A DNA stretch of 64,000 nucleotides from Phalacrocorax aristotelis. Lineage: Eukaryota > Chordata > Aves > Suliformes > Phalacrocoracidae. This document shows positions 16,026 through 40,900 of this stretch, piece by piece (the first letter of the stretch is position 1; the number at the start of each line of letters is the position of its first letter). A model generated the notes under the pieces. It was given only the letters and a program-made list of their open reading frames with translations. It searched no databases and was not told the origin of the DNA. The stretch spans positions 11,483,401 to 11,547,400 of the forward strand of contig NC_134310.1 of NCBI RefSeq assembly GCF_949628215.1. Reading direction: 5' to 3'. The translations under genes were made by a program, and so were the position numbers.

Positions 16026-16793
16026 TAAGTACATTTATCCAAGATAAGCAGTGACAGATGCCACACCCCCTCTTTCTGCAGAAGCCCTGCCCCTACTGGC
16101 TGTCACGTGTCCCACTTGCCCCAGAAGTTCCTCCCCTGTTCCAGTCATGTACTTTTTGACTTCTACAGCTACACCCCCAAACAGTGCTGTCTTTCCTGAA
16201 AATATCACGGCCTTTTTAAAACAGAACACTACAGACATCACTTTCCAGAGGAAGCAACACCCCCTCTTGCAGGTACCGCTGTGCCTTTTTCCTACATCAG
16301 CATAAAAAGGGGCCTACCTTCTGAACAGCTTTTAAAACTGCATTCTAATGATTTACTACAGAATGAATGGATGGTGATGCACTTTGCAAAAAATAACTAT
16401 AGACCTTTCCCCTTGACCAGGGCTACTTAAAATATATTTTAAAAAAACCAGGCCTGTATTTCCTGTAATGATTTTCATAAATACATTATGTAAATAAAAC
16501 TTACAACCCAGCTGAAGTGTTTTAAAAATTTCTGTATGCATGTGCGTTCTTTAACTGTTATCCATGCAGGTTTTTTTTTTGTTTTGTTTTTAAGTAGAAA
16601 AACAAAGTTGAAGGGTTTAGAAATTATTTATTTTCAGCAGTAAACTTTGGAGACCCAGTCAGGTTGTTTTCTCTTCTTAGGTGGTGTGGGTGTTGTTCTC
16701 TGGTCCTCTCCAGTCTCTTTAATTTTTTCCAAGAGATCCTGGTCTCTTGTACTACCCATGACAGAAGATGGGAAATTCACCACAGCCATGGTG
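16026..16793 (-). pseudogene. Maverick-related fragment (3' end of conserved gene plus flank)
   Basis: 16640-16793 matches 46998-47154 on the minus strand, the 3' end of a Maverick-type gene (shared plus-strand words 'acccatgacagaagatggga' and 'gcagtaaactt'/'acagtaaactt'). 16255-16640 matches 38850-39170, for example 'gcttttaaaa', 'ggatggtgatgca', 'ctcaaaatatattt'/'cttaaaatatatttt' and 'gtaatgattttcataaat'. Both copies can be read on the minus strand with similar residues (KFYLHNVFMKIIT and KFYLKNKFMKIIT), which may be a real short peptide or only nucleotide similarity. 16026-16255 is also related to 19560-19779. Confidence 0.6.
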
Positions 16794-18884: not shown

Positions 18885-19559
18885 CGTGGTCACTACAGCC
18901 AAGGCTGCCCTTGACCTTCACATCCTCCATCGAATCTTCATTGTTTGTGAGGAACAGGTCCAACATAGCATCTCCCCTAGTCAGTTCATTAATTACCTGC
19001 ATCAAGAAATTATCTTCAACATGTTCCAGAAATCTCCTGAATTGCTTGTGCTCAGTCACATTGCAGATATCTAGCAGATATCAGGGAGGTTAAAGTTACC
19101 CATTAATACCCGGGCCTGTGATTGTCAGGCTTTCTACAGCGGCCTAAATAAGGCTTCATCTGCCTTCTCTTCTTGCTCAGGGAGTCTGTAGAAGACACTT
19201 TCTACAACATCATCTGTTCTGGTCTGTCCTTTGATCCTTACTCATAAGCTCCTGGCATGTTCCAAGGCAAAGCTCCATACATTTAAGCCATTCCTTTGGA
19301 GAGATCACAACCCCTCCTCCCCTCCTTCCCACTCTGTCTTTCCTGAAGAACTTCTATCCATTCAATGCATCACTGCAGTCATGAGAGCTAGCCCCATACT
19401 TCTCTGTAATCCGAGTGATGTAATACCTCTGCACAGGCTTCTAATTCCTCCTATTTCTTTCCCATGCAACATGTATTTGGGTACAGGTGTTTGAGATGGC
19501 CCCCAAGTCATGCTGCTTTTACAGGCTGTGAGGCTAGTACTGCCTTCAGTAGTACAGGG

Positions 19560-19779
19560 ACAACTTTTATCCAAGATAAGAAGTGACAGGTGCCCTGGCA
19601 GAAGTCCCACCCCCCTGCAGACAGTCACATGTAGCATTTGTCCTGGAAGTCGCTCCCCTCTTCCGGTCATGTGGTCTGTTGTGATTGCCTGGAAGGACCA
19701 GCCACCCCTTCCAGTTTATTTCAGAACAGGAAGTCCCTTCTCCCTACATACACAGTGTGGTGCCATTTTGTTTCAGCCA
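19560..19779. repeat. Dispersed repeat related to 16026-16255
   Basis: Shares 'tatccaagataag.agtgacag' and the following cytosine-rich block with 16027-16150. Its right part resembles 24290-24350 ('caggaag.ccc.tctccc'). The full-length CR1 at 19780-24139 appears to sit inside this repeat. Confidence 0.5.
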
Positions 19780-20110
19780 GACAGTCGGCAAGGAGCACAG
19801 CGGCGGCAAGGGCAAGTCCCGTGGCTCAGCGCTAGATCAGGGCAGGCAAAGCGGTTCCTCGTACCCGAGAAGCCCGGGGGTGAGCAGAGGGACCCGTCAG
19901 GAGCCGGCAGCTCTCGCGAGTGAGGCTGACGCGCAGCTGATGCGGCGTGGGGCGTTGCCAGAAGCAACGTCGGGAGATTTAAACGGCCTCTAGGGAGCGC
20001 GAGCGACCAGGAGTGTGGTGAACAGGACGGGCAAACAGGGCGTGGCGCGTCAGAAGGGCGTGGCGTGGCAATTTGTGCGCCAGTTCATGCTTGCAGGGTG
20101 AGCAGGGGGG

Positions 20111-21173
20111 ATGCCGCAGCCTTCTTGTAGGTCTACAGTTCAGGCAAATGCTTCGGCCTTGAGTGAAATGGTGAGCACTCGCCTCAGAGCTAAAAACACT
20201 GTTCGTTCAGCGAAAGCCCCCAAGATGTCAGACTCATCCACCCAGACGGATCTGGTAAGAAAGGACACACCAGTACAGGCAGTGGGTTGCGGCAAATGCC
20301 CAAACCCCTCTCCTGATGAAAAGGTAAGTACCTGCACAAGGTGTGCACAGGTTGACGACCTGTTACATCAGGGGGCCAAACTGAAGGAAACGGTTAAGAG
20401 GCTGCATAGTATTAGAGGAGCTGAGGCAGAGATAGACAGGTGGCTTCAGAATCATGTTCCTGTGGCAGACACCACCGAGAATGAGGCACCGTGGACCCTG
20501 GTGACTCACAGGAGCAGGATTCCACATCAGCCTGCACCCTCTACCATCACAATCAGAAACAGATATGAAGCCTTAATGACTGAGGACACCCATGAGCAAG
20601 GTCTGCAAAGTCCCCCACAAGGGAAAACTGTACCAGCAACACACAGTGGACATCGTAAAAAGAAACGACGAGTGCTCGTGGTGGGTGACTCTCTGTTGAA
20701 GGGTACTGAGGCACCCATCTGCCGACCTGACAGGGAGTCACGAGAGGTATGCTGCCTCCCAGGAGCCAAGGTCTGAGACATTGCTGAGAGGGTGCTACAA
20801 CTCATCAGGAAAACAGACTACTATACGCTATTACTATTTCATGTAGGCATGAACAACACTGAGAGCCGCAACCTGGGTAAAATCAAGGAATTCTTTTGAG
20901 CCCTGGGGGAGCAAGTGAAAAACATTGGCGCCCAAGTGATCTTCTCTTCCATTTTGCCAGTTCGAGGGTAGGGAGCAGCCAGAAACAGGAGCATAATGTA
21001 TATCAACTCCTGGATACATGGCTGGTGCCACCGTGAGGGGTCTGGCTTTTATGACAATGGGGTATTCTTCAATGACGACAATGTGCTAGGGAGGGATGGA
21101 ATCCACCTGTCTAAAAGGGGTAAGGGAATCTTCAGCAGTAGGCTGGCTAATTTGGTGAGGTGGGCATTAAACT
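20111..21173 (+). pseudogene. CR1 ORF1 (RNA-binding / esterase protein), broken
   Basis: The first 221 codons are open (20111-20776). They contain a Cys cluster (CGKCPNPSPDEKVSTCTRC), a coiled, charged stretch (KLKETVKRLHSIRGAEAEI) and the start of an SGNH-esterase-like domain (VLVVGDSLLKG). Two in-frame TGA codons (20774 and near 20898) look like decayed CGA codons. The domain continues beyond them with FHVGMNNT and GRDGIHLS, the latter carrying the Asp-x-x-His pair of the family. In CR1 this protein binds element RNA; its esterase role is not well understood. Two of its stops are shared with the copy at 59785-60905. Confidence 0.75.
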
Positions 21174-21299
21174 GAAGGACTTGGGGGGTGGGATCTGTGG
21201 AGAAAACGCTCACACCAGCACATCCAACGGGGGAGTAAGTCAGGCCAAGCAGTGTGGTGATAAAGGTTCCTTAGCTGTCTCCCAAGAGGTGAAACAGAA

Positions 21300-24064
21300 G
21301 AGTAAACACCTCAAGTGTATGTACACGAATGCACGCAGTCTAGGTAACAAACAGGAGGAACTGGAGCTCCGTGCCCACTCAGAAGGGTATGACATCATAG
21401 GAGTAACTGAAACATGGTGGGACAACTCAAACGACTGGGGGATCGCAATGGATGGTTATAGGCTCTTTCGTAAAGACATGCAGGGCAGAAGAAGTGGAGT
21501 CACTGGTCTCTAAATTAAGGAAAACCTCGAATGTGTCGAAGTCAACTATGGTGATTGCAACTGCTCTATCGAATGCCTCTGAGTTAAAGTCAAAGGGGTT
21601 GTCTCCAAGCAGGACCTCACAGTAGGCATCTGCTACCGGCCTCCTAACCACGATGACAATGCCGACAAAGCAATACTTGGGGCACTAAAGCAAGCTTCTG
21701 GCCAACAGAACCTGGTCCTCATGGGTGACTTCAACTACCCAGACATCTGCTGGAAAAACGATACAGCAGCTTGCACGTCATCCACCAAGTTCCTGGAATG
21801 TATAGAGGACTGTTTCCTGATACAAATGTTAGATGTGCCAACCAGGAAGGAGGTGCTGCTGGACTTGCTATTCACAAACCGAGAAAGCCTGCTTTGTAAT
21901 ATCTCGGTTAGTGATAGCCTTGGCTGCAGTGATCACAGTATTGTGGACTTCGGGATCCTGCTGAGTGTGCTGAAGGTCACCTCTGAGACAAGGATTTTGG
22001 ATTTTAGAAGATCAAACTTCAGTGCACTCAGGGCTCATTTGGGAGGGGTTCGATGGGAAGCTTCCATGGAATACAAAGGAGCTAGTGAGTGCTGGGAATT
22101 CTTCAAGAACTCTCTATTGGAAGCACAAAGCCAATTTATCCCCTACAAAGGAAAGGGAAGTAAGTGGAGCAAGAGGCCCCCATGGCTCAACCATGACCTC
22201 CTGGGTCTACTCAAATCCAAAAGGGAAGCCCACCAGAAATGGAGAAGTGGAGGATTATCCACCGAGAACTACAAGGGCATAGCCAGAAAGTGCAGAGATG
22301 CAGTCAGAAAAGCAAAAGCCCAATTTGAATTGAAACTGGCTGTACATGTGAAAAATAACAAGAAAGGTTTCTTCAGACATGTCAACCATAAGGAGAAAAA
22401 GAAGGAAAACATAGGCCCACTGTTAAACAGAAAAGGAGAATCAATCACCAATGATGCAGAAAAGGCAGAGGTCCTCAACACCTTCTTCACCTCTGTCTAC
22501 CAGCACTACCGTGTCCCAGGCTTTGGGAACAAAATTGCCGATTGAACCAAACACCGACCCACCATCAGTGAAGGAAGAGTTAGTACATGAATTATTACAG
22601 GAGCTTGACCCCCACAAATCAATGGGCCCTGACACCATCCACCCAAGGGTGTTGAGAAAGCTGGCTGACATCATTGCAAGGCCACTCTCCATAATCTTTG
22701 AGAAGTCATGGAGAACAGGGGATGTCCCAGAGGACTGGAGGAAGGCAAATGTTACCCCTATCTACAAGAAGGGCTCGAGGGAGGATCTGGGTAACTATAG
22801 GCCCATCAGCCTTACTTCAATCCCTGGGAAAGTTATGGAACGAATCCTCCTGGGAGCCATCACAAGTCAAATGAAACATGAGATTGGGAAAAGCCAACAT
22901 GCCTTCACTAAAGGCAGATTGTGCTTGACAAACCTGGTGGCCTTCTATGACAAAGGGACTTGCCTGATTGACATGGGGTGGGCGGTGGACATTGTCTACC
23001 TGGACTTCTCCAAGGCCTTTGATACGGTCCCCCACAGTCTCCTCCTGGAGAAATTAATGCGTTATGGCCTAGACAAGTGGTCTGTGCAGTGGGTGGGGAA
23101 TTGGCTGAGAGGCCGCACCCAAAGGGTGGTAGTAAATAGCTCTTTCTCAAACTGGCAACCTGTCACAAGTGGAGTCCCCCAGGGATCGATATTGGGCCCA
23201 ATGTTATTCAACATCTTCATAAGTGATCTGGATAACGGGATCAAGTGTAGCCTGATGAAGTTTGCAGATGACACCAAACTGAGTGGGGAAGTAGACACTC
23301 CAGAAGGGAGAGCTGCTCTGCTGGAAGATCTCGATAGGCTGGAAGAGTGGGCCAGCAAGAACCTTATGATGTTCAACAAGGAGAAGTGTAAGGTCATGCA
23401 CCTGGGAAAACATAATCCAGGAGTGCAGTACAGACTGGGATCTACCTGGCTGGAGAGCAGCTCTGTGGAAAGGGACCTGGGGGTCCTGGTGGACAGGAAG
23501 CTCAACATGAGCAAACAGTGTGCTGCTACAGCCAAGAAGGCCAACAGGATGCTGGGTTGCCTCAAAAAGGGCATCACCAGCAGAGATAAAGATGTCATCA
23601 TCCCACTCTACTCAGCGCTTGTCAGGCCACACCTGGAGTACTGTGTACAGTTCTGGTCCCCGCTATACAAAAAGGATGTAGACAGGCTGGAAGGGGTCCA
23701 GAGAAGGGCCACCAAGATGATCAAAGGACTGGGAAGCCTGCCATATGAGGATAGGCTGGGAGAACTGGGTTTGTTCAGCCTTGAGAAAAGGAGGCTTAGA
23801 GGGGATCTCATTACCATGTACCAGTACTTAAGGGGTAGCTGCAAAGAAGATGGAGACTCCCTTTTTACAAGGAGTCACATGGAGAGGACAAGGGGGAATG
23901 GACACAAGTTGCTCTTGGGGAGATTCCGATTGGACATGAGAGGGAAATTTTTCACATTGAGGACAGTCAACCATTGGAATAATCTCCCCAGGGAAGCGGT
24001 TGACTCGGCCACGTTGGACGCCTTTAAGAATTGTCTGGACAGGGTGCTGGGCCATCTTGTCTAG
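21300..24064 (+). pseudogene. CR1 ORF2 (AP endonuclease and reverse transcriptase), broken
   Basis: The endonuclease starts near 21300 (MYTNARSLGNKQEELEL, DIIGVTETWW) and shifts frame after 21513. 21721-22545 continues it with MGDFNYPDICW and LGCSDHSIVDF. A second frame, 22451-24064, carries the whole RT: a [10 protein letters not shown] block, [29 protein letters not shown] and the catalytic FADDTKLSG, then a C-terminal region that is typical of CR1. The two frames overlap by about 95 bases, so one frameshift separates them. ORF2 nicks target DNA and reverse-transcribes the RNA there. The RT half is notably intact. Confidence 0.88.
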
Positions 24065-24139
24065 ACTGTGCTCTTCCTAGAAAGGTTGGACTAGATGATC
24101 CCTGAGGTCCCTTCCAACCTAAGATTCTGTGATTCTGTG

Positions 24140-24660
24140 ACATTTTATGGTAGGGAGCTGCCATTTTGTTAAACAGCATAGCCCATGTGTTTTCATATTG
24201 CTCTGTGACTGTCTGATGGCCATTTCTTGACACTGTCATACCCATGTGTTCTCAGACAGCCACCCACACTTTCCTGTTTACCCCAGAATGATGTCAGAGC
24301 AGGAAGCCCCTCTCCCACTAAATATGCAGAGTCCACCATGTTTTTTCAGTGACCATTTTATGGTAGGTGGCTGCCATTTGCCTCAGTATCATTAACACTG
24401 TCATACCCAAATGTTCTAAGACCTCCTTCTGATTGGCTGTCCACTTCCTTTGGACCAGGAAATGCTCAGATATAAAAATATATACATTTATATGCAATAC
24501 ATACAGTAGGTACATAAATAGAAATAGGCTCAATTTCCTCATAGGACAGATGCTCCAGTCCCTTAATCATTCTTTAAAATGTCCTTTAATAAGAGCTAAT
24601 AGAATGAATAGTTAAAGTTTAAATGTGAATAGACAATAATTAAACAAAGGTAAAAGGCAG
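24140..24660. other. Repeat-derived non-coding DNA
   Basis: Contains two similar blocks, 'cattttatggtaggg.agctgccattt' at 24140-24166 and 'ccattttatggtaggtggctgccatttg' at 24352-24380, about 210 bases apart. This suggests a partial tandem repeat. No gene. Confidence 0.45.
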
Positions 24661-24904
24661 ATTTGGGGTGTTCCACTTTACAAGGCTGAAAATCAAGCCT
24701 TAGCACATCTGGGGTGGGGAGGAAGTTCAAGATGGTGGAGGGGCACCAACAAGGTGGGGGGCACAGACAAACATGCCCGAGGGCTATGCACCCCTCCTAG
24801 GAGGTTCACAAAGGTGCCCCCAGCACAAATCCTGTCACATGCAAAGAAGAAATTAATCCTGTGAGCTGGACTGAGAGGCCCCCACATCCAGGCCCAGCCC
24901 AACA

Positions 24905-25380
24905 GGATGACCATGCAGTATTAATGGGGCAGACTTTGGGCTTTGCATGATGCTGCAAGACACAGGCAAAGCTGCCTGCAAAAATGGAAAACCAGAACAA
25001 AATGCCAACTTCAGAAGGACAAGTACAGTACATGGGGACAATAAGTAAAAGACCCTAAGGGATTCACAAAAAAGATCACGCAAAGCAGAAGAACTGGCCA
25101 ATGGGTCTATGAATCCCAAACTGGATTTCAGGATGTCACACAGAGGGTGGTGGTAGTGGGAAGCTCCCTTTGCCTATGATTGTGGGGGATCTTACAGCTA
25201 CCTGCAAGACCACTATGGGGTGCAGGCTGGTGCTCTATGCTTTTTTATCCTTGGGTCAATGACCTTACATAATATTTCAAATAAAACTCCTGCTGACTGA
25301 CTGATGAGGGAGAAGTCAGAACTGCACCTTGACTTGTCTGCATTGCCGTCCGGGCCTGCAGCGGCCAAAGAAAGGAGAAT
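24905..25380 (+). repeat. LTR-like fragment
   Basis: Shares 'catgcagtatta.tgg' and 'aaaaccagaacaaaat.ccaacttc' with 52788-52890. It ends with a poly(A) signal (caaataaaactcc at about 25278-25290) followed by a GC-rich stretch, as expected of LTR R/U5. No coding ERV sequence is attached. An A-run of 19 follows at about 25407-25425. Confidence 0.5.
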
Positions 25381-25553
25381 GGGCAAAGAAGTGACAATGA
25401 CACTCAAAAAAAAAAAAAAAAAAACACAAAAAGCCTGGAGAAGTCTGACTGGCAACCAATTCCACTTGTACCCTGTTAATAAAATTTATCTGTTAAATTG
25501 ATTGTCCATTGTTTCATTTCGTACGTGTGTGAAGTAGCAGCATGTCAGTAGGC

Positions 25554-26291
25554 ATGTCTATGCCACCACTTCTGTTAGAAGAGATTTACTGTGCTCTTGG
25601 GGAGGTGAGAAGCTTTGGGGGCGTAAATTCCCTTTTTGAAGCTGCTAAAAGGTGAATTGCTGATCTGAACAGAAGCTAAGTGGCCACTTGGCTTGAAAAC
25701 CAGGCTGCTTATGCTAGGCTGTAAGAAAGCAACTTAAAAGAAACAAGGTGATTGTGACAAAGGTGGATGCACAGTGGCAGGCAGACTTGGTGGATAATGC
25801 AACTTTGATGTGCTGTCAGAGCTTATAAAGAGCTATAACCATAGCTTCCAGAGAACTATTAGAGCCAGGCTTGTAGACATGAACCTTTTCAACTCTGCAA
25901 GGGTTTAGAAAACCATATATGGGGGTGTGCTTAAAATTAAAGAATTTGAACCTTTGCTCAAAAAGAGGCCACATCAAGGTGTCAAGAACAAGAGAGATCT
26001 GAGAAAGGTTATGAACAAACATTCACAGATGAAATTTTCATAGTAGCTGAAATTGTGAGAAGGGGACAGATACCTGTGTACTGCTAATAGACTATGGTCA
26101 CAAAGCAATTGAGGGAAAATTTTACACTGAAGAACTTAAAAAAAAGTGAATCCTGACAAAGACAGACTCTAAAGAATTGAAAAGATCATTGCTACAAAAA
26201 GGAAAGGAAGAAATAGCTGCTGGTGAAGTGGCATGGCTGGCCCCAGAAATATAACTGTTGGCTAGAAGCCTCCCAAGTCCAGGACATCTAG
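25554..26291 (+). pseudogene. Maverick integrase, catalytic core deleted
   Basis: The N-terminal part (25554-25805) contains EEIYCALGEVRSFGGVNSLF, then VATWLENQAAY and, after a shift, VIVTKVDAQWQADLVD. That last motif is the start of the Maverick integrase core. Instead of the rest of the core, the sequence jumps at about 25806-25827 to the region after it (KSYNHSFQRTIRAR). It then continues in several frames through the C-terminal domain (RRGQIPVYC, IEGKFYTEELKK) to a chromodomain (LVKWHGWPQKYNCWLEASQV) ending at TAG 26289-26291. Most of the DDE core, about 130 residues, is gone. In active elements this retroviral-type integrase inserts the DNA, and the chromodomain may guide site choice. 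Confidence 0.8.
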
Positions 26292-26316
26292 TGATTGGCG
26301 GTGGAGCAGGGGGAAA

Positions 26317-27063
26317 ATGAAGGATGACAAATGGGGGGGTTCTACATCATCCTACCCAGCAATGCGAGCACCAAATCTTCCCACAAAACACCAGCTTGAA
26401 CTTTACCATACAGTTGGTGGGGCCCCTGGAGCTCTCAGGCAAGTGGGAGGTGGGGCTTGTGGAAATACAGTACCTGCACAGCTGGAATAACATCAATGAA
26501 GATGTTATCTTTGAAATAGTGCTGCAGGGTAAGACATGGCAGTATACGTTGTGGAAAGGCTATTATCCATCCCTCTTCATGTTGGTGGAACTTATGAACC
26601 ATCTTATTAACCCCCACAGCAAAGCTTCAGCCACTGACTCTCCATGGGGGGCTTGGTCTATGATCACGCCATAAGGAAAACAAAGCTCAAAATGGATGAA
26701 AAGCCTTATGCTTTTTCTACAACTGGGGAAACAAGCACATGTTTTGGAGGATTCTCTGGTGGTGGTTTTGTGGCAGACATCACCTTAGGGTTTAACTCAC
26801 TCTACCTCTACACAGATCTTGTAGAACACAAGCTTGTCAGGGACTTTGCGGTTCCATTATTGTGTTGTGTTCTGATTGGCGGTAATAACGACGAGACTGT
26901 GACAATGACGAATGATAAGCTGCACTACATGCTGGTAAACCACCAGCACATCAACATGATCAGCATTGAAATAAAGACTGACCAGAACAAGCACGTCTCA
27001 TTTTGCTTTGGGAAGGTGATCGGGAAGCTGCATCTTTGGCCCCAGAAGCCTCTGATATTTTAA
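26317..27063 (+). pseudogene. Maverick minor capsid (penton-like) protein, frame-broken
   Basis: Two open pieces (26324-26674 and 26644-27063) make up a protein of roughly 245 residues, the usual size. Near the start, after a G7 run that shifts the frame, is the family signature: FPQNTSLNFTIQL, then LSGKWEVGLVEIQYLHSW. The second piece has ADITLGFNSLYLYTDLVEHK and IKTDQNKHVSFCFGKVI, the conserved C-terminal blocks. A frameshift lies between 26617 and 26690. Polinton minor capsid proteins are single jelly-rolls that form capsid vertices. Assignment as penton is from family knowledge; the alternative is another Maverick virion protein. The next gene starts 14 bases after the stop. Confidence 0.72.
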
Positions 27064-27077
27064 GTAACCATGCCAAA

Positions 27078-27595
27078 ATGGTAGTGTTAAAAAGTTATGG
27101 GGACCCATCCTCCTTTGTGAATTATTACAGAGCCCAGGCTTGCAATGGTCTTCCTGGTTTTCAAGGCATTCCTGTGATGTATGGTGTAGGCACTGGAGGT
27201 ATATTCTGTAGCCTGTTTAGAAAGGCCATCCGACTTTTGAAAAGGGTTTTGGAAATTTTTAAGCCTCACGTTAAAAGTATGACATAAGATATTGCAAAAA
27301 ACTGTGTTTGGACATGTTTCCAAGGTTTTCATGGACAAGTTGCACACACTGGCAAATCAGGAGGGCTCAAGATTTGCTTATATTAAAAGAAAAAGCCTCA
27401 ATGAGAGCCATGTCACATTCCCAGAGAGAAGGACCACCCCAGCCTTTTAAAAGAAAAAAGAAGGGGGGCACCAGACAACAGTCTGACCAGGACAAGAAGG
27501 AGAAAAAGAACAAGCCAGGCCAAATGGTGCAAAAGAAACAGAAAACCCAGAGGAAGAGGTCCCATTCTACCACTAGAAAAGGAAATGTATTTTAA
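27078..27595 (+). pseudogene. Maverick PX-like basic virion protein, frame-broken
   Basis: The start at 27078 opens a frame to 27287 containing YYRAQACNGLPGFQGIPVMY and VGTGGIFCSLFRKAIRLL, an amphipathic segment typical of the adenovirus pX/pVI-like proteins of Mavericks and adintoviruses. After a shift near 27288 the match continues as VSKVFMDKLHTLANQEGSRF and AYIKRKSLNESH. A second shift leads into the very basic tail (KRKKKGGTRQQSDQDKKEKK) ending at 27595. The likely role is binding packaged DNA or helping membrane or capsid release. It is followed after 5 bases by the major capsid gene. Confidence 0.7.
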
Positions 27596-27600
27596 AAGGG

Positions 27601-28660
27601 ATGGCTTTCATTCATGGCTGCTCAGAAGAATGTACCAGAACCAAGCTGGATTTGTTTGAAGTGTCCCCAATGCAGATCAGCATCAAGAAATGCCTGTTTA
27701 TTGAGGTGCTTCCACTTTCCCCTATTACAGCATCTGCACCTCTGGACTTTTTCATAGCTGGAAATGGGGAAGATTACAAAGATCCAAACAACACTCTGCT
27801 GCAAGATTGTAAAAGCTGACAGGTCCAACCTTGGAGCTAGTGAGGCTGTGGGTCTCTTGAATTACCCACTGCTCTCTGTTTTCAGCCAGCTGGACATTAT
27901 GCTGGGGGACTCACTGATAAGCTAGAGCAACAACTGTTACCCCTACCGTAACTTCATTCAGTTGCTTCTCAATTACAGCTGTGACACCCCTGTCCACATA
28001 CTTCTCCATGAGGCTGCTCTACAAAGACACAGCTGGGCAGCAGAAAGCAGTCATGCTGGATGGTGTTGCTAATCAGGGCTTCAGGCAATGCTCAGCTCTG
28101 ACGGCCCAAAGGAGGAGGATCAAACTACTGCATCCCCTCCACAGCAATCTGTTCTTTTGAGACAAGCTTTTATTGAATGGTGCAGATGTAAAAATTAGGC
28201 TCACGCACAGCAAAGACAGCTTTTGTTTGATGAGCTCCCCAGCAGCAGGAGCCTGCAAGCTGGTTATTATTTATGCCTCACTGTTTGTGAAGAAAGTGCA
28301 GGTGGCACACTAAGGCATTAATTAGGGCCAACGCTAAATACCCAGTGGACTGGGTGGACATGAGAGTCTTCAGCATGCCACCTGGCAGTTGTGTCAGCTA
28401 CCAATTTGTTTCTGGGACAACTGCTCAAGCTTGTTGTTATTGGGTTCATAGATAACAATGCTTTTAGCAGCAACTATGCCAAGAACCATTTCAACTTTAA
28501 ACATTATGATATAAATTTTGTGGCCCTCTATGTGGATGGTGAACAAATGCCAATAAAAGCGCTGCAGCCTGATTTTGAGAAAGGCTACTATGTGAGAGAA
28601 TACATACAGCTCATTCAGACAGTCAGCAGCCATATAGAGGACCATTCCCTGCTGGTTGTC
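27601..28660 (+). pseudogene. Maverick major capsid protein, broken and 3'-truncated
   Basis: The first frame (27601-27819) reads TKLDLFEVSPMQISI and FFIAGNGEDYKDPNNTLL, the N-terminal signature of the double jelly-roll capsid protein of Polintons (the 'F54H12.2-like' family). Decayed sequence from 27820 to 28390 keeps recognisable words in changing frames (FSQLDIMLGDSLI, HSKDSFCLMSSPAAG). The frame 28391-28726 carries the second jelly-roll (NHFNFKHYDINFVALYVDGE, DFEKGYYVREY). The last about 20 codons of that frame are reverse-strand CR1 3' end, so the true C-terminus has been lost. Full family members are about 450-600 residues. Confidence 0.8.
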
Positions 28661-31365
28661 ATAAAGAGCATCGAGTCCAACTCCCTGCTCCTCGCAGGAC
28701 TACCTAAAACTAAACCATATGACTAAGAGCATCATCCAGATGCTCCTTGAATTCTGACAGGCTTGGTGCTGTGACAACTTCCCTGGGGACCCTGTTCCAG
28801 TGACCGACCACACTCTCAGTGAAGAACCTTTTCCTAATGTCCAATCTTAACTTCCCCTGATGCAGCTTCATTCCATCTCCTCGTATCCTATCACTGGTCA
28901 CCAGAGAGAGGAGCTCAGCACCTCCCCCTCCACTGCCACTCTTGAGGAAGTTGTAGACTGTGATGAGGTGACCCTTCAGCCTTCTCTTCTCCAGGCTGAA
29001 CAAACCAAGTGACCTCAGCTACTCCTCATAAGTCTTGCCCTTGAGGCCTTTCACCATCTTGGTCGCCCTCCTCTGGACACACTCTAATAGTTTGATGTCC
29101 TTCTTATATTGAGGTGCCCAAAACTGCACAGTACTCAAGGTAGGGCCATACCAGTCCAGTGTAGAATGGGACAATTGCCTCCCTTGACCGGCTAGCTATG
29201 CTGTGCTTGATGCACCCCAGGACACGGTTGGCCCTTTTGGCTTCCAGGTCACACTGTTGACTCACATTCAACTTGCCATCAACCCACACCCCCAGATCTC
29301 TTTCTGTGGGGCTGCTCTCCAGCCTCTTGTCCCCCAATTTGTATGTATAAGCAGGATTACCCCATCCCAGGTGGAGAATACGGCACTTGCTCTTGTTAAA
29401 TTTCATATGGTGGGTGATTGCCCAGCTCTCTAGTCTATCCAGAGCTCTCTGTAAGGCCTCGAGGGAGTCCACAGCTCCTCCTAATTTAGTATCATTGGCA
29501 AACTTACTTAATGTACATTCGACTCCTGCATCGAGATCATTGATAAAAACATTAAAGAGCACTGGCCCTAAGATTGAGCCCTGGGGAACTGCACTGGTGA
29601 CTGGCCACCAGCCTGATGTAACCCCATTTACTACAACTCTTTGAGCCCGATCCATCAGTCAATTGTTCACCCATCGTATTATGGATTTGTCTAGCTGTAC
29701 GCTGAACATCTTGACCAGAAGGATACTGTGAGAGACAGTATCAAAAGCTTTGCTAAAATAAGTTTAAAAAGCCCCACATCCACTGCCTTCCCTTCATCCA
29801 CTAGGCGGGTAACCTTGTCATAAAAGGATATTAAGTTAGTAAGGCATGACTTTCCCTTCATGAACCCACATTTGCTCTGACCGATGACTGCATTGTCTCT
29901 CAAGTGTTTTTCAGTAACTCCCAGAATAATCTTCTCCATAATTTTACCAGGCACTGAAGTGAGACTGATGGGCCTATAATTACCAGGGTCTTCCTGCTTA
30001 CCCTTCTTGAAAATTGGAACAACATTTGTTAGCTTCCAGTCGACTGGGACCTCTCCAGATTCCCAAGACAGAGAGGTCTTGCAATAACATCGTCCAACTC
30101 TTTCATTACCCTGGGATGAATCCCATCGGGCCCCATAGACTTATGTGCATCCAGCTGGAGCAGCAAGTCTCAAACAGGTTCAGAGTCAGCTGGGAGTTTA
30201 TCATTCCCCCAGTCTCAGTCTTCCAACACAGGGCTCCAGGGGTCCCAGGGCCCATCATCAGTGTTAAAGACAGAGGCGAACAAGGCATTAAACGTCTCTG
30301 CTTTGTCTATGTCCCTATTTGTGAGTTGACCAACCTCATCAAGTAATGGACCAATATTTTCTTCAGTCGTCTTTTTGCTGTTAGCACACTTAAAAAAGCC
30401 TTTTTTTCTTTTTGTTATCCACCACAGTACTGGCCAGCTTCAACTCCAATTGAGCTTTGGCTATACAATTTTTCTCCCCACAGTGGCGAACAGCATCTCT
30501 GTAGTCCTTCTGTGTAGCCTGACCTTGCTTCCAAAGTCCATACACTTTCTTTTCCCTCCTAAGTACCAGAGGGAGATCCCTGCTCATCCAAGCTGGCCTT
30601 CCGCCCCTCTTGCTTGACTTCTGACACATTGGGATTGCCTGCTCCTGCGCTTTCAAAAGATGGCTCTTAAAAAGTGACCAGCATTTTGGACCCCAATACC
30701 TTCAAAAGCAGATTCCCAGGAGATCTTATTAACTAGCTCCTTCAGCTAGTCTGCTAGCTACCTTCCCAAAGTCTGCTCTCCCCATATCCAGGATTGAAGT
30801 TTTGCTGGCAGTTTTTCTCCTATCACCAACAATTTGAAACTCAAATACTTCATGGTCACGGTGACCAAGACAGCCACTGATCACAATTTTGTCCATGAGA
30901 CCCTCCCTGTTAACAAAGAACAAATCTAGGAGGGCACCTTTCCTAGTTAGCTCCCTTAGTACCTGCACCAAGATGTTATCTTCAACACACTTCAGGAATT
31001 TCCTGGACCTGTTTGTGTCCACTGTATGATATTCCCAGCTGACGTCTGGGAAGTTAAAATCACCCATAAGGGCAAGGGCAACTGATCTAGAGATATCACT
31101 TCATTCCTTACAGAATAATTAATTGGTGTCATCGTCCTGGCTGGGGGGCTGATAGTAGGCTCCCACAACAACATCCGCTTTATTTGCTTTCCCCTTAATC
31201 CTTACCCAGGGGCTCTCAACTGTATCATTGCCAACTCTAAGTGCCATACAATCCAACTCCTCCCTTACATACAGTGCCACCCCGTGCCTCACCTGCCCTG
31301 CCTATCCCTCCTGAAGAGCCTATAGTTGTCCATCACAGGACTCATCCCACCAGGTTTTGCTTATG
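28661..31365 (-). repeat. CR1 LINE, 3' portion of a long copy (left of ERV C)
   Basis: Minus-strand ORF2 with a C-terminal region (29003-28710), RT (29655-29104, with [20 protein letters not shown]; the catalytic box reads FANDTKLGG instead of FADD), upstream RT (29954-29691) and endonuclease (31067-30729, MGDFNFPDVSWEY, RELTRKGALLDLFF). Its 3' end overlaps the end of the Maverick capsid gene. The element continues right of the provirus at 37590. Stops and shifts throughout. Confidence 0.85.
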
Positions 31366-31371
31366 CCAATG

Positions 31372-31835
31372 TGTGGGAAACTATAGGCTTGAATCCACAT
31401 GCGGGTCCCCTGATAAGTTGTTTGAGATAGAAAGCGGGCTGGAGGATTATAGGTACGCGATGGAATTAGCTTGACTACAGACCCAGTGTCAGACCCGGTG
31501 ATGGAAAATTACAGAGATCAGACCCGATGATGGGAAATTACAGAGAATCTGCAAGTCACCAGGAGGAGGAAGAAAGGCGAGAGATATCTCGGCCTTGAGA
31601 GCAAAGAAGAAAGGCAGGAATATCTCTCGGCCTTGAGAGCATCCGACAAACAACAAGGAGTTTAGGCACGAAGTACAGAAATAGACTGTTCGTTAAGGAG
31701 GTGTCGCAATCCGTATGAAGTAATTGTTGAAGCTTGTTTACAAGAGCATATAAAAGCGCTGTGACTTAAAAATAAAACTGAAGCTTGCTCTATCACTCAC
31801 GTTGAGTTGGCTGCTTGCTTTCCTCGCTCGCCGCA
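31372..31835 (+). repeat. 5' LTR of ERV C
   Basis: 464 bp, TGTGGGAAAC to CTCGCCGCA. The promoter has 'agcatataaaagcgc' at about 31744-31758, and AATAAA is at about 31770-31775 close to the TATA box, so R is short. Contains a near-direct internal repeat of 'atctcggccttgagagcaaa' / 'tctctcggccttgagagcat' at about 31588 and 31622. Confidence 0.95.
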
Positions 31836-31837
31836 AC

Positions 31838-31855
31838 TGGCGCCCGAACAGGGAC
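31838..31855 (+). promoter_or_regulatory. Primer binding site, tRNA-Lys3 type
   Basis: TGGCGCCCGAACAGGGAC, two bases after the LTR. This is the sequence complementary to the 3' end of tRNA-Lys3, the primer class of several beta- and lentiviruses. Confidence 0.92.
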
Positions 31856-32079
31856 CTGAAAAGGACTATTTCTGATACGGCAGCGAGAGACGGAGACGCA
31901 CTGGCAGACGGCGGCCAGGGGGCAAAAGAGGAGTCGATTTATGCATCATTTCTGATACGTTCCGACCCTCCGGCCTGGATCCAACCTCGGAATTCAAGAG
32001 GGGATCCGCTTTCCGCAGTTGAAGCTAACCCGGGAGCGAGAGCCGTACAAACGACGCTGATTTATCCTCACATCGGGCG

Positions 32080-33822
32080 ATGGAGGTCGAGGTAGCTTTT
32101 GAATTATTAAAGTGCTTTTTAGAAAAGCGGGGAGTAAGTCAGTTAAAAGACTTGTCAAGGCTAGTTACAGTGGGCAAAGTGAAAGAGTTCTTTAAAGAAC
32201 CGGAGTCGATTTTTGAAGTAGAGGAGTGGAGAGCTTATGGTGATTGTTTGTGGGACTTGGTGATAGATGACGATAAGACAGCGAAAAAGCTAATGAAACC
32301 TTGGCGGGAAGTGATTAACTGTATGAAAAAATATAAAACTGAAAAAAGATTAGCAACAGCCGCCTCTGATCGGCTAGACAATTGTGACCCCAATGCTGGA
32401 AAGATTGGAATTGGCTTAGGCAATCCTTCGCCTCCCTTCTCGGGGATCCCAGTTACCGTACCTCGAAAGCCCCTTATTCCTCCTCCTCCCCCTCCTCCTC
32501 CTCCTGGTGGATCTGTAGAAACTAGCGGAGAAGGAATAAGCTTGGGAAAGGGAGGTGAAGATATTGAAAATTTATGTGATGTAGTTTCTCCGGTGGAGGA
32601 AAATAAGCCGAGCACCCCGTCTAGTCACCGTTCTGTGCCTAGTGTGCGCAGCCGAGTTGACTGGCGGAAAATCGGGTTAGAGGCATTACAAAATGGGGAC
32701 CTAGAGACCGCCGACTTGTTGGCTCAGGCTTTCCCTGTCATCTATCAACCGGACCCTGCTAACAATCAAAATTTATTCGCACACCATACTCCTCTTGATT
32801 GGAAAATCTTGAACCAGCTGAGAAGTACGGTCAGCGAATCGGGTGTACACAGTGAGCCGACCAGACAGATGCTAAATTACATTTGGGGAAGCGGGCTGCT
32901 TTGTCCCGAGGATATTAAAAACATTATGAAGTTCATACTGACACAGTCGCAGCAGCTTTTATGGCAGGCTCACTGGCACGCCCTATGCGATAGATCGGCA
33001 AACACCCAACGCCAGCAAAACGATCCGCTAGCAGGAGTAATAGTAGAACAACTTATGGGAATAGGACCCTTCTCGTCCCTAGACATGCAAATGCAGACAG
33101 GCCCTGATGTATTAAGAGAATCAATGAGGCTAGCAAGGGATGCCTTACAGCGCGTCAAAACAGCACCAATCACCCCTTCTTACATGTCGATTAAGCAAGG
33201 GAGGGAAGAGCTTTTTGCCACGTTTGTGGATCGAGTTACAGAAGCGTTAGATCGTACCGACTTACCTGAGTTTATGAAGGGCCCATTGCTGCGTCAATGT
33301 GTTATGGAAAACTCCAACCAAGCTACTAAAAGTATTTTAATTACACTTCCCCTAGACGCAGGCATTGAGGTGATGCTTGAACGCATGAGTCGAGTACCTA
33401 CCGGTCCTCAAGCTATGTTAGTTGAGGCACTGAGGGAAGTTGGGCAGGGAATGGTACAGGTTCAACAACAAGTTTGTGCCGCTCTCGCCCCATTGGGTCC
33501 AGCTAAAAACCCTAACAGAGGGCCAGCTACTTTTAGATGCTTCCGCTGCAGAAAAGCAGAACACATGAAGAGACAGTGCAGCGAAGCTAACTTATGGTGC
33601 AAACACTGCCAGGCTCAAGGCCACAATACAACTGCCTGCCAGCGTTCGGGAAACGGGAAGCTGAGCACCCAGAGTCGCAGCGCGCAGGCACCAATTGCGG
33701 CTCCAGTGACTTCTCAGCACTCCGTCACCACGCCACCAGTCGTGCCGAGCAGCTCCGGCCAGCTTCCAATTTACAACCCACCACCAGAGGAAGCCTCGGC
33801 TTGGACTTGGCAACAGCAGTAG
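32080..33822 (+). CDS. gag: ERV C Gag polyprotein, intact frame
   Basis: 580 codons, uninterrupted. The matrix begins MEVEVAFELLKCFLEKRG (no Gly at position 2, so no ordinary myristoylation). A Pro-rich run of nine P (about residues 132-142) is followed by an acidic linker, capsid (about 195-460, with SYMSIKQGREELFATFVDRV, a major-homology-like block) and nucleocapsid with two CX2CX4HX4C knuckles (CFRCRKAEHMKRQC and CKHCQAQGHNTTAC). The first knuckle lacks the usual Gly. Directly after the second knuckle is G GGA AAC in frame, the gag-pro shift site. The ATG at 32080 is the first in frame and lies about 225 bases after the primer site. It forms the virus core and could still assemble. Confidence 0.9.
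   Translation: MEVEVAFELLKCFLEKRGVSQLKDLSRLVTVGKVKEFFKEPESIFEVEEWRAYGDCLWDLVIDDDKTAKKLMKPWREVINCMKKYKTEKRLATAASDRLDNCDPNAGKIGIGLGNPSPPFSGIPVTVPRKPLIPPPPPPPPPGGSVETSGEGISLGKGGEDIENLCDVVSPVEENKPSTPSSHRSVPSVRSRVDWRKIGLEALQNGDLETADLLAQAFPVIYQPDPANNQNLFAHHTPLDWKILNQLRSTVSESGVHSEPTRQMLNYIWGSGLLCPEDIKNIMKFILTQSQQLLWQAHWHALCDRSANTQRQQNDPLAGVIVEQLMGIGPFSSLDMQMQTGPDVLRESMRLARDALQRVKTAPITPSYMSIKQGREELFATFVDRVTEALDRTDLPEFMKGPLLRQCVMENSNQATKSILITLPLDAGIEVMLERMSRVPTGPQAMLVEALREVGQGMVQVQQQVCAALAPLGPAKNPNRGPATFRCFRCRKAEHMKRQCSEANLWCKHCQAQGHNTTACQRSGNGKLSTQSRSAQAPIAAPVTSQHSVTTPPVVPSSSGQLPIYNPPPEEASAWTWQQQ
33648..33654 (+). promoter_or_regulatory. Gag-pro -1 frameshift slippery site GGGAAAC
   Basis: G GGA AAC is correctly phased: GGA and AAC are Gag codons (33649-33654). 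The -1 frame opens into the dUTPase start (RGSLGLDLATAVDV). The same heptamer serves gag-pro shifting in type D/betaretroviruses such as MPMV. A downstream pseudoknot was not modelled. Confidence 0.85.
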
Positions 33823-34043
33823 ATGTCACTTTGATGGACACTCGTCCACAGAAGATCAGCATGGCTCACAGAAGAGCCAGTATGGGTCGGGCAGTGGCCG
33901 CTCAAACGGGAAAGTCTACAGCAAGCCCACATATTAATAAAAGAACAATTAGATCAAGGACATCTCCGACCGTCGACAAGCCCCTGGAACACCCCTATTT
34001 TTGTTATCAAGAAAAAGTCAGGGAAATACAGGCTGTTACATGA
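33655..34043 (+). pseudogene. pro: ERV C dUTPase/protease region, mostly deleted
   Basis: In the -1 frame after the slippery site, a linker leads to RGSLGLDLATAVDV, the first motif of a betaretroviral dUTPase. Within about 20 codons, near 33855-33875, the sequence jumps to RT N-terminal sequence (VGQWPL in the related provirus context). The remainder of dUTPase and the whole protease, including its DTG active site, are missing. The frame then runs out of phase to a stop at 34043. Without protease the element cannot process its own Gag. Confidence 0.75.
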
Positions 34044-35641
34044 TTTACGGGCAGTAAATCAGCAAATGCAAGCGATGGGGGCTTTACAGCCTGGCCTTCC
34101 AAATCCAGCCATGTTACCAGCTGGTTGGCATTTGCTAATTATTGATTTAAAGGACTGCTTCTTTACTATAAAGCTGCATCCTCAGGATACCCAGCGATTT
34201 GCATTTACGTTACCAGCAATCAACAGAGAGGGTCCTGACTTACGTTTCGAATGGACAGTATTGCCACAAGGCATGAAGAATAGCCCTACTCTGTGTCAAC
34301 TTTTCGTAGATGCTGCATTAAAAAATGTGCGGCAGCAATGGCTGGACACTATAATTTACCATTACATGGATGACATCTTGTTCGCGCAACAACAACCCTT
34401 CTCGGCACAGCAAGAATTATATTTACAGCAACAGCTCCAGCTACACGACCTAGTAATCGCAGCAGAGAAGGTTCAACGTTCGCCAGTATGGAAATACCTC
34501 GGATGGCGCATCAGTGACTCTCAAGTAAGTCCACAGAAACTTACGTTACACACGGCAATCAAAACCCTTAATGATGCTCGACGGCTGTTAGGAGACCTAC
34601 AATGGCTACGGCCAGTAGCCGGAATCACTAATGATGACTTGGAGGTTCTTCGCCCTATGTTAAAGGGCACTGACCCTGCCGCGCCGGTCCGACCGACTGC
34701 CGAACAAACCTCGATGATACAACGCCTCAGCTCCGAGATCGTTCAGAGAGCAGTAGACCGGCTGGACCCCGATCTCCCCATCGATCTCACCATACTCCAT
34801 GGTTCTACTCACATTTTGGGTGCACTTACTCAGCGCAAAAAGAAAAAGGGGGAGAAGATAAGGGTGTTGGAATGGATATTTACAAGCCTACAGCCGAAGA
34901 CAAGCCTGCCCTACCTGCAGCCATCACGGACCAGGCATAGGGCTAGGAGTTAATCCCAGAGGCCTTCAGGACAGGGAAATATGGCAAATGGACGTTACGC
35001 ATGTGTCAGAATTTGGGAAACTAAAATATGTTCATGTTACTATCGATACTTATAGCAAGTTTTTATGGGCAACAGCACAGTCAGGGGAAAAGGCTGTCCA
35101 TGTTATACGTCATTTAACAGTCTGTTTTGCTGTAATGGGAACTCCAACACAGGTTAAGACATACAATGGGTCAGCATACTGTAGTCAGAAGGTTAGGAAA
35201 TTTTTACAGGCATGGGGGGTACGCCATCTCACGGGCATTCCACATTCACCCACAGGGCAAGCAATAATTGAGAGGGCGCACCAGACTCTAAAACAATATC
35301 TAAACAAATTTCGAGACGTAAAAGATGTACAAGAACGGCTTGCAAAAGTTTTGTTTGTATTAAATCACTTGTGCATATTTGCAGAACACGATAACCCTCC
35401 TGCGTGGGTGCATGGGAATGACGGTAGGAAGGAGTCAAGACAGGCAGTAATGGTAAAGTATCGAGACCCTTCCACTGGTCTATGGCAAGGGCCCGTAGAA
35501 GTCAAATATTTTGGTCGAGGTTACATGTGTGTGCTTACCCCCACAGGTCCAAGATGGATACCCAGTAGATGGGTAAAGGCTATGCCTAACGAACAGAAGA
35601 ACGAAATCTGCGAAGTGACAGGAGACAGTGAAGACGTATGA
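33876..35641 (+). pseudogene. pol: ERV C pol: RT kept, RNase H deleted, integrase mutated
   Basis: RT runs from about 33876, with a small shift near 33912, to 34953. It has LLIIDLKDCFFTIKL, LPQGMKNSP and the catalytic YHYMDDILFA. After the connection region (RKKKKGEKIRVLEWIFTSLQ) RNase H and the His half of the integrase zinc domain are missing. From about 34900 the frame changes and integrase resumes at its CxxC. The open frame 34988-35641 has the first Asp (MDVTHVSEFG) and the Glu (GQAIIERAH), but the second Asp is replaced: KTYNGSAY where KTDNG is expected. The C-terminal domain (WIPSRWVKAMP) is intact and stops at 35641, overlapping the next ATG. The provirus must have been copied with help from other viruses. 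Confidence 0.88.
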
Positions 35642-36075
35642 CTGCACTGGTAGAGGTAGCCAGGATACGGATAGAATGTCCCCAATGTAATAAGTGCCGA
35701 CCCTGGGTACTAAGAGAGTGTCATAGCTGTCAACAGCGCGGGTGGGTAAGAACCCATCGAGCTAGGGGGTGGTGTGACAGTTGCTACTATCACCCATTAC
35801 AGACACATAAGGTTTTAATTATCGCAGGCCACGAAATAGAGGGTTCTAGACGATATGAATTGCACACCCTTGACTGGATTAGACAAATCAATAGTACTCC
35901 CGTTAGTCATCGTAAGTATCGTGATAAGAATCACCGAGGGCATGTACATACCGCCCCAGCCAAAACAGAATGTATGGGTTACCCTGGCAAATCTAACAGG
36001 CCAAGATTCCATCTGCCTATCATTGTCATCGCCAGGAAATCCCCTCTCCACCTGTTTGGTTGGAGTGCCGGTTGA
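35638..36075 (+). CDS. Cys-rich ORF between pol and env (unknown accessory)
   Basis: 145 codons, opening at ATGA, where the ATG overlaps the pol stop TGA. It runs about 220 bases into env in another frame. The first half has three paired-Cys groups, CPQCNKC, CHSC and CDSC, with a His nearby (YHPLQTH), suggesting a small zinc-binding fold. The second half overlaps the Env signal peptide region and is basic (HRKYRDKNHRGHVH). I do not recognise the protein. It may be a genuine accessory gene or the integrase C-terminal extension in another frame. It is uninterrupted in a young provirus, which is weak evidence for function. Confidence 0.5.
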   Translation: MTALVEVARIRIECPQCNKCRPWVLRECHSCQQRGWVRTHRARGWCDSCYYHPLQTHKVLIIAGHEIEGSRRYELHTLDWIRQINSTPVSHRKYRDKNHRGHVHTAPAKTECMGYPGKSNRPRFHLPIIVIARKSPLHLFGWSAG

Positions 36076-37222
36076 TAATTGGACGCTAGTGATACCACAA
36101 AATACACCACACTTAGGGAGCCTTTGTGATACTCCCCAGAATTGTGTGAATAATTGGGACGGTTGGGCAGTCCATCGCCCTCAAACTAATCTCGAGCCAC
36201 AAGAGCTTGAGCTATTAGGTTCTTTGTCAATGGATGCTTGTTTATACTTTAATTATACGGAACGAAACCAGTCTCTTTCTTGGCCTGTGAATGCCACCCT
36301 AAGTGTATATAAAAATGCCACTGCTTGGTGTAACTATACCTCTGCAAATATATCCCGCTCTAGCAATATGCCTATTGCTCTACCTGCAGGTTTGTTTTTA
36401 ATTTGTGGAGACCGGGCTTGGCCTGGCATCCCGTCACATATAAAGGGAGGGCCTTGCTCTATAGGTCGCCTAACACTTCTTACTCCTAACACTTCAATGA
36501 TTTATCAACATTATAGAAAGATGAGAAGCAAAAGGAGCACTCATAAGTTTGAGAACAGCTGTGACTCTACAGCTGAGTTTTGGAATCCGGCAAAGATCAT
36601 AGCTGCTTCCTTCTTGGCTCCTGGAGTTGGTGTTGCTCAAAGCCTCACGACATTAAACAAGCTAGGGTGTTGGCTAGCTAAGCAAACAAATGCCACATCA
36701 AAGGCGTTATCTGACTTATTACTAGATGTAGGCTCTGTAAGACACGCTACGCTGCAAAACCGCGCAGCCATAGATTTTTTGCTTTTAGCCCAAGGACATG
36801 GGTGTGCTGAATTTGAAGGGATGTGTTGCATGAATCTATCAGATCATTCGGAATCAATACATGCAAGTATTGAGAGCTTAAGAAGGAGGGTCTCAGAACT
36901 TAGGGAGGATGATCCATGGCATTGTTTTAACAGCTTGTTTAATGGATGGGGCATTGGCAATTGGATTAAGAGTATTTTGCAGATGGGACTAATGATATTT
37001 ATACTGTTTATCATTGTATTAATGTGTGTTCCTTGTATATTGCAATGTATGCGACGAATGATGGAAAGAAGTATGAGTGCCGTGTTCCTTTCTCAAGGAA
37101 CAAAAGAAAAAGGGGGAAATGTGGGAAACTATAGGCTTGAATCCACATGCGGGTCCCCTGATAAGTTGTTTGAGATAGAAAGCGGGCTGGAGGATTATAG
37201 GTACGCGATGGAATTAGCTTGA
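35855..37222 (+). CDS. env: ERV C envelope glycoprotein, intact frame
   Basis: 455 codons, uninterrupted. The signal segment is IVLPLVIVSIVIRI (about residues 13-26). SU has several N-x-S/T sites (YTERNQS, WPVNATL, YKNATAW, CNYTSAN) and the CLVGVP motif. A furin-type site RSKRS (about residue 227) precedes the TM subunit, with a hydrophobic fusion segment (IIAASFLAPGVGVAQ), the NRAAIDFLLLAQGHG block, the CX6CC motif (CAEFEGMCC), and a membrane anchor (MIFILFIIVLMCVPCI). The frame passes through the purine tract and into the 3' LTR, so the last about 33 residues are encoded by U3. Its relative at 3192-4033 is decayed. It mediates attachment and fusion. Confidence 0.9.
   Translation: MNCTPLTGLDKSIVLPLVIVSIVIRITEGMYIPPQPKQNVWVTLANLTGQDSICLSLSSPGNPLSTCLVGVPVDNWTLVIPQNTPHLGSLCDTPQNCVNNWDGWAVHRPQTNLEPQELELLGSLSMDACLYFNYTERNQSLSWPVNATLSVYKNATAWCNYTSANISRSSNMPIALPAGLFLICGDRAWPGIPSHIKGGPCSIGRLTLLTPNTSMIYQHYRKMRSKRSTHKFENSCDSTAEFWNPAKIIAASFLAPGVGVAQSLTTLNKLGCWLAKQTNATSKALSDLLLDVGSVRHATLQNRAAIDFLLLAQGHGCAEFEGMCCMNLSDHSESIHASIESLRRRVSELREDDPWHCFNSLFNGWGIGNWIKSILQMGLMIFILFIIVLMCVPCILQCMRRMMERSMSAVFLSQGTKEKGGNVGNYRLESTCGSPDKLFEIESGLEDYRYAMELA
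37102..37119 (+). promoter_or_regulatory. Polypurine tract of ERV C
   Basis: AAAAGAAAAAGGGGGAAA directly before the 3' LTR TG. It is read through by the env frame. Confidence 0.9.
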
Positions 37223-37583
37223 CTACAGACCCAGTGTCAGACCCGCTGATGGAAAATTACAGAGATCAGACCCGATGATGGGAAATTACAGAGAATCTGC
37301 AAGTCACCAGGAGGAGGAAGAAAGGCGAGAGATATCTCGGCCTTGAGAGCAAAGAAGAAAGGCAGGAATATCTCTCGGCCTTGAGAGCATCCGACAAACA
37401 ACAAGGAGTTTAGGCACGAAGTACAGAAATAGACTGTTCGTTAAGGAGGTGTCGCAATCCGTATGAAGTAATTGTTGAAGCTTGTTTACAAGAGCATATA
37501 AAAGCGCTGTGACTTAAAAATAAAACTGAAGCTTGCTCTATCACTCACGTTGAGTTGGCTGCTTGCTTTCCTCGCTCGCCGCA
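37120..37583 (+). repeat. 3' LTR of ERV C
   Basis: 464 bp, identical to 31372-31835 except position 37246. It ends GCCGCA and is followed by the target duplication CCAATG. The LTR contains the end of env (stop 37220-37222). Confidence 0.95.
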
Positions 37584-37589
37584 CCAATG

Positions 37590-38745: not shown

Positions 38746-38779
38746 GTACCCTCAAACAGCGCTCTCTTTCATGAAAGCT

Positions 38780-39180
38780 TCGTGTCATTCTTAAAGCTCA
38801 GTGCTATGGATATTGCATCCCAGAAGCAGCAACAGCAGCATCCCCTCTCCACGGCCTGCGGATACCACAGTTTCTTTCTCCTTCATCATCATAACAAGGG
38901 ACTACCTTTCAAACAGCTTTTAAAATGGTAATCTAATCTAGTACAAAATAACCAGATGGTGATGCATTTTGTAAAATATGAATATGGATTTTTCCCTGTC
39001 ACCAGAGCTACTCAAAATATATTTCAGAATACCCAGTCATGCCTCACTTGTAATGATTTTCATAAATTTATTCTTTAAATAAAACTTATAACCCAGCTAA
39101 ACAGGGGTGTGTTTTTTAATCACTCCCCCCAACATGTTTTTTTAAATGGACAATACAGACAACAGTTTAAGGATTTTATG
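38780..39180 (-). repeat. Maverick-associated flank, copy 2
   Basis: Matches 16255-16640 over about 300 bases. In the copy at 16 kb this sequence runs straight into the Maverick gene end; here a CR1 3' end begins at 39182, and the Maverick gene resumes only after that CR1, at about 46990. This places the CR1 inside the Maverick sequence. Confidence 0.6.
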
Positions 39181-39181
39181 A

Positions 39182-40644: not shown

Positions 40645-40650
40645 CATGAC

Positions 40651-40898: not shown

Positions 40899-40900
40899 AG

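Follow-up and report, generated by a model that had tools for sequence, protein, structure and literature searches.

A decayed Maverick/Polinton element split by CR1 and ERV insertions on a very probable W chromosome of Phalacrocorax aristotelis

The window analyzed here, a 64,000-nucleotide stretch of Phalacrocorax aristotelis DNA (C35:11483401-11547400, on a 31.3-Mb contig of a 1.279-Gb genome in 352 contigs), contains what we regard with high confidence as a dead, right-truncated Maverick/Polinton that was probably inserted by its own integrase into an ancestral bird genome, decayed there, and was split by CR1 and ERV insertions. Measured against a sibling copy, L009 (C1:134.33 Mb), the fossil spans approximately 19531-47932, with about 6.2 kb of Maverick sequence distributed over about 28 kb and with CR1s and ERVs that arrived later, about 22 kb in all, lying between the pieces. 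At 25554-28660, decayed genes for an integrase, a minor capsid, a PW-like protein, and a major capsid follow one another head to tail on the plus strand. An earlier sequence-only reading had noticed this cassette; the cassette is real, but it is only the middle of a larger element, and that reading included neither the loss of the integrase core, nor the CR1 that cuts the capsid gene, nor the parts of the element outside 25554-28660. The features are as follows.

19531-19779, plus strand: outer part of the left TIR, identified by sibling TIR matches; the terminal (AGT)2 is degraded, and the start is approximate and set by eye.
19780-24140, plus strand: CR1 LINE inside the TIR, a later insertion; L011 has the site without the CR1.
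24141-25553, plus strand: inner TIR and left arm, in which no gene was recognized; patchy matches to L009, L010, L011, and L012.
25554-26291, plus strand: integrase pseudogene with chromodomain, carrying frame changes and stops (P0008-P0013, tblastn, PF00385).
26317-27063, plus strand: minor capsid (penton-like) pseudogene, frame-broken (P0004-P0007, tblastn).
27078-27595, plus strand: putative PW gene remnant, read earlier as PX-like, frame-broken (gene order in PMC8097293; DNA similarity to L009, L031, and L036).
27601-28660, plus strand: major capsid pseudogene, frame-broken, its C-terminal part lost at the CR1 junction (P0001-P0003 over 28257-28657; N-terminal part by sibling DNA only).
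28661-38725, minus strand: CR1 LINE carrying a young ERV (31372-37583), later insertions (CR1-tail matches; LTR pair).
38726-39183, plus strand: Maverick resumes with the post-capsid segment, at the expected place of the protease (L009 and L011 matches).
39184-46983, minus strand: CR1 (minus strand) and a second ERV, later insertions; L009 is contiguous here.
46984-47932, minus strand: Maverick resumes at the pz position, the putative first gene of the opposite-strand module from this side (L009 match).

The identification of the cassette as a Maverick/Polinton fossil in a bird is supported by the published gene order, by homologous proteins from bowfin, turtles, a crane, and read assemblies, and by CHD1-type exons on two large contigs, the pattern of avian Z and W chromosomes. 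The second module of vertebrate Mavericks contains integrase, minor capsid, PW, major capsid, and protease (PMC8097293). The window order of int, mcp, pw, and Mcp matches that module; polB lies on the opposite strand in the sibling L036, and the opposite-strand module of the window copy is represented by the pz-position piece only. The place and order that the sequence-only reading gave for the four genes were borne out, with protein homology for three of the four, and its gaps of roughly 5 to 35 bases agree with intergenic spacings of 25, 14, and 5 bases (by eye). Protein comparison of the decayed frames, for which single-frame window pieces were used as queries, yielded Maverick-type matches for integrase, minor capsid, and major capsid. 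Besides the chromodomain, Pfam searches of the window pieces returned chance-level matches only (E 0.056 to 0.23), and IMG/VR scans with P0002, P0006, and A4 found no relative. Chance similarity is disfavored because a blastn control, in which the script that compared sibling pieces with the window plus its right flank (E 1e-3) was run on the reversed sequence, gave no match.

The integrase frame, with X placed at stops, matched 6 of 106 candidates, which came from hawksbill, softshell turtle, bowfin, and read assemblies, and four of these six homologues (P0008-P0011) contain both rve and Chromo Pfam domains. By tblastn, residues 13-60 and 64-89 of the turtle protein P0008 match 25572-25715 and 25718-25795, while residues 205-340 and 271-367 match 25807-26211 and 26001-26288, overlapping in different frames; the best single HSP has an E of 1.35e-17. 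Approximately residues 90-204 (about 115, most of the catalytic core) are deleted from the window integrase. A 24-aa chromodomain piece at 26217-26288 matches PF00385 with E 1.9e-4 and 21.7 bits, below the Pfam cut-off of 25.1 bits.

The minor capsid gene is spread over at least two frames. Residues 17-100 of P0006 align to 26372-26623 (E 1e-20) and residues 151-242 to 26773-27048 (E 5e-32), and P0004 is 80% identical across 26692-27060. With the piece at 26638-27060 as the query, 4 of 17 candidates matched, all of them from read assemblies and the best with E 4e-59. P0006 and the integrase P0010 each come from a 4237-bp source contig, which is probably one and the same. Judged by position and by the gene order in PMC8097293, this family would be the Maverick minor capsid. 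Downstream of it, the third gene of the cassette is upheld by its position and by sibling DNA similarity, but the earlier PX-like label is without homology support, as homology searches with approximately 27078-27595 gave no protein match. Its assignment as PW rests on position and on sibling DNA similarity.

For the major capsid, the turtle protein P0003 aligns to 28257-28657 in three frames (E 9e-42). The piece at 28364-28723 matched 3 of 13 candidates, namely two turtle proteins and the crane (Grus japonensis) protein P0001 (E 1e-38), and the turtle protein P0002 is named F54H12.2-like, a label that we take to denote a Polinton capsid. When the same piece was compared with the genome, 34 of 40 matches were confined to its last 64 or so bases, which are CR1 tail. 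The minus-strand CR1 cuts the capsid gene near 28660; where the element resumes, at 38726, it has skipped about 0.4 kb of the L009 sequence. AlphaFold models of the minor and major capsids were too poor to use (mean pLDDT of 33.0 and 28.8, respectively), and PDB sequence searches gave a single match, with E 1.4, for the former and 0 matches for the latter.

Comparison with siblings extends the element on both sides of the cassette. The window is colinear with L009 at 19572-19779, 24199-24888, 26375-28668, 38726-39183, and 46984-47932, and L010 covers the integrase, which L009 lacks. L009 has kept both TIRs, its left end reading AGTAGT, and the left TIR of the window is 74% identical to the right TIR of L009 (E 1e-24), 67% to its left TIR (E 5e-9), and 71% to L011 (E 2e-30). 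Within the left arm (24141-25553), the longest match-free stretches are 24889-25039 and 25178-25434; the possibility that this arm is unrelated flank was ruled out, as siblings carry parts of it beside their own Maverick genes or TIR. Beyond the capsid, 38726-39183 is 76% identical to L009 6117-6577 (E 1e-87) and 77% to L011, and 46984-47932 is 78.6% identical to L009 6580-7525 (E 0). The name pz and the strand of this last piece are putative, given by position from PMC8097293.

Two of the insertions have empty-site counterparts, 19780-24140 in L011 and 39184-46983 in L009, and the 100-base flanks joined across each of the two align end to end to L011 and L009, respectively. CR1 boundaries were set by eye, and CR1-like ORFs run, by eye, from 20102 to 24064. 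The ERV at 31372-37583 has LTRs that are 99.78% identical over 464 bp. By eye, it is flanked on both sides by CCAATG and contains long frames resembling pol and env. The LTRs of the second ERV, at 40651-46722, are 94.8% identical over 250 bp. To the right, neither the polB modules of L010 and L036 nor the right TIR has a counterpart in the window or in the adjacent 10 kb; the window copy therefore either lacks its right end or has it beyond the stretch searched, and with no match to polB or the right TIR it could not, taken by itself, establish a full Maverick.

Genome searches revealed many relatives. Among the best candidates, the minor capsid protein gave 16 matches, the major capsid 13 matches at 8 loci, and the pz-position DNA 9 matches at 8 loci. 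No polymerase was found in the window copy; the PolB family PF03175 has one match in the genome, in the sibling L036 at C35:13465132, scoring 27.1 bits in the genome search and 28.8 on the open piece against a cut-off of 25.8. At that locus the remnants of minor capsid, PW, and capsid are on one strand and this PolB is on the other, as in the published two-module layout. Pfam searches of ten sibling and window pieces found PolB once and a chance-level transposase match (E 0.046), with no match to an FtsK-like ATPase or a protease family; an ATPase-like Walker A was read in L009, by eye only. L036 (C35:13463000-13472999) and L035 (C35:13399000-13408999) form a palindrome whose inverted arms are 99.98% identical over 5335 bp and carry minor-capsid remnants; the L036 PolB piece is outside the duplicated part.

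The age of the fossil can be approached through a crane. P0001 is 84% identical to the window over 85 aa and aligns to it without gaps across the capsid/CR1 boundary, its last 20 or so aa being CR1-derived. At five of seven capsid loci elsewhere in the genome the CR1 point was examined; four read through it, and L012 is ambiguous. These data suggest one CR1 insertion common to the window bird and cranes, a suggestion that rests on one protein and is open to later duplication, and we infer that the window and crane loci are orthologous. The proposal from sequence alone that such an element colonized the avian lineage or an ancestor fared well, in that colonization of an avian ancestor is likely given the shared capsid/CR1 junction. 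K2P distances between the window copy and four siblings on C35 and L009 are 0.21 to 0.28, and its terminal branch in a ten-copy tree is 0.098, the supports of that tree ranging from 0.07 to 0.89 with three of seven above 0.8. At assumed neutral rates of 1-2e-9 per site per year, this would amount to about 50 to 100 million years, a rough figure. The order of insertion, from Maverick to CR1s to a very young ERV, serves as a relative clock, and when the locus has been traced, the junction shared with the crane can supply a minimum age.

We propose that an endogenous dsDNA virus entered an ancestral bird genome via its own chromodomain integrase and has since undergone neutral decay on a chromosome that today is very probably the W, and that a CR1 then landed in the left TIR, a CR1 and a young ERV in the capsid gene, and a CR1 and an ERV in the middle. 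The main competing account, which we consider improbable, holds that the copy at 24.1-28.7 kb is separate and that other Maverick copies, inserted nearby, gave rise to the pieces at 19.5, 38.7, and 47.0 kb. Clustering of this kind does occur, as evidenced by remnants at 16031-16791 and about 1 kb left of the window and by a fragment at 52786-52901. However, the pieces are colinear with L009 and do not overlap, the breaks fall at L009 6577/6580 and L011 4911/4909, and the flank joins align end to end with siblings, all of which argues for one interrupted element.

Two further explanations were rejected. A viral gene retained or co-opted for an antiviral or other role might account for the open minor-capsid frames of 123 and 164 aa in read assemblies (P0004 and P0005) and of 141 aa in the window, but the integrase, minor capsid, and major capsid all contain frame changes, the integrase core is lost, and the capsid is cut by CR1, which leaves co-option highly improbable. 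No present function of the fossil is discernible. Assembly contamination by fish or turtle DNA would fit a distribution in which intact Mavericks occur mostly in fish, with a few in other cold-blooded vertebrates (PMC8097293). Nevertheless, the genes lie inside CR1- and ERV-rich sequence of a 31.3-Mb contig, many diverged siblings occupy other contigs of the same genome, and a crane protein shares the junction, so contamination is scarcely credible.

In birds, CHD1 is the classic gene pair of the Z and W chromosomes, with CHD2 as an autosomal relative. PF13907, the CHD1-like C-terminal family, has four matches in the genome, on C36, C35, C7, and C18; the CHD1-type exons of C36 and C35 lie in stretches that both contain stops and are 75% alike over 1649 bp. 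The HIT family, searched as a W marker, gave three matches, all on C36 and none on C35, which we take to be HINT1 and APTX. A W and a Z are also consistent with the sizes of C35 (31.3 Mb) and C36 (78.9 Mb), with the palindrome, and with the high density of ERVs; C35 is very probably the W chromosome.

Among the best candidates, 21 Maverick loci were counted, with the C19 tandem array and the 99.98% C35 palindrome each merged: 7 on C35, 5 on C36, and 9 elsewhere. C35 makes up 2.5% of the genome. Binomial probabilities are 5e-7 for C35 and 0.008 for C36, but the count is query-biased: of its three queries, two derive from the C35 copy itself and favor its near relatives. A query-neutral search with the turtle major capsid placed one of eight loci on C35 (p 0.18), with no W excess. 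Moreover, an interval of 50 kb holds three of the seven C35 loci, and loci may have multiplied by duplication on C35. The W chromosome is known as an ERV refugium (Peona et al. 2021, PMC8310711), and the main text of that paper mentions neither Maverick nor Polinton. Whether the avian W is likewise a refugium for Maverick fossils, with a last activity perhaps shared with cranes, is a notion that we entertain tentatively and with some doubt; if true, the W, whose nested CR1 and ERV insertions can be placed in order, could hold a datable record of the last Maverick activity in birds.

The sequence-only reading placed such genes mainly in fish, amphibians, reptiles, and invertebrates, but birds are not a new host group, as degraded bird copies were already described (PMC8097293, PMC9683012, and PMC4992247). 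Barreat and Katzourakis (2021, PMC8097293) report degraded Mavericks in birds, as does PMC9683012. The elements described in PMC8097293 resemble ours in gene order, in an opposite-strand second module, and in the (AGT)2 end seen in L009; unlike them, the window copy is truncated, interrupted by CR1 and ERV insertions, and located on a probable W, with neither polB nor ATPase in view. In the main text of PMC8097293, the word crane does not occur, and the sole mention of W is a platyfish reference. Guizard et al. (2016, PMC4992247) described Polinton remnants on chromosomes 2 and Z of chicken and turkey, likewise bird copies, in which the frames for integrase, capsid, and PolB are interrupted, but in the part of that paper drawn on here no W copy is named, in contrast to the probable W location reported here. 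L010, which lies on C2, may, at a guess, be the chicken chromosome 2 Polinton locus. Adintoviruses, reportedly described by Starrett et al. in 2021, are said to have a similar virion gene set. Fossils on human chromosomes 7 and 8, from placentals, are likewise ancient and apparently nonfunctional, but are in mammals (PMC9683012).

Literature searches on Mavericks with birds or with the W chromosome showed no bird W Maverick in titles or abstract openings. The kind of element is therefore already known in birds, and the W setting and nested layering are new details as far as the literature was searched; with the window, the known bird record gains a stratified Maverick fossil that is probably W-linked. 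When and why bird Mavericks died out is described as a mystery in PMC9683012, and should the excess on W prove real, assemblies of that chromosome would be the place to seek the last of them and the timing and cause of their extinction.

Additional Maverick pieces and repeats were observed in and around the window. In a second remnant, at 16031-16791, which lacks the genes from integrase to capsid, a piece of TIR adjoins the post-capsid and pz-position segments. Outside the window, about 1 kb to its left at C35:11482212-11482471 (L030 8731-9208), a third remnant is minor capsid on the minus strand, and 52786-52901, which is 79% identical to left arm 24911-25027 and sits beside a repeated LTR-like stretch, is a possible further fragment. 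On another contig, C19:892979-958793 holds five minor-capsid matches in 66 kb, four of equal score and one slightly lower, forming an array with a Maverick piece. Finally, 7355-9424 and 48842-50910 form an inverted pair that is 85 to 91% alike over about 2 kb and ERV-like by eye, and 20221-20989 and 59791-60559 are CR1 5' parts in inverted orientation that are 99% alike.
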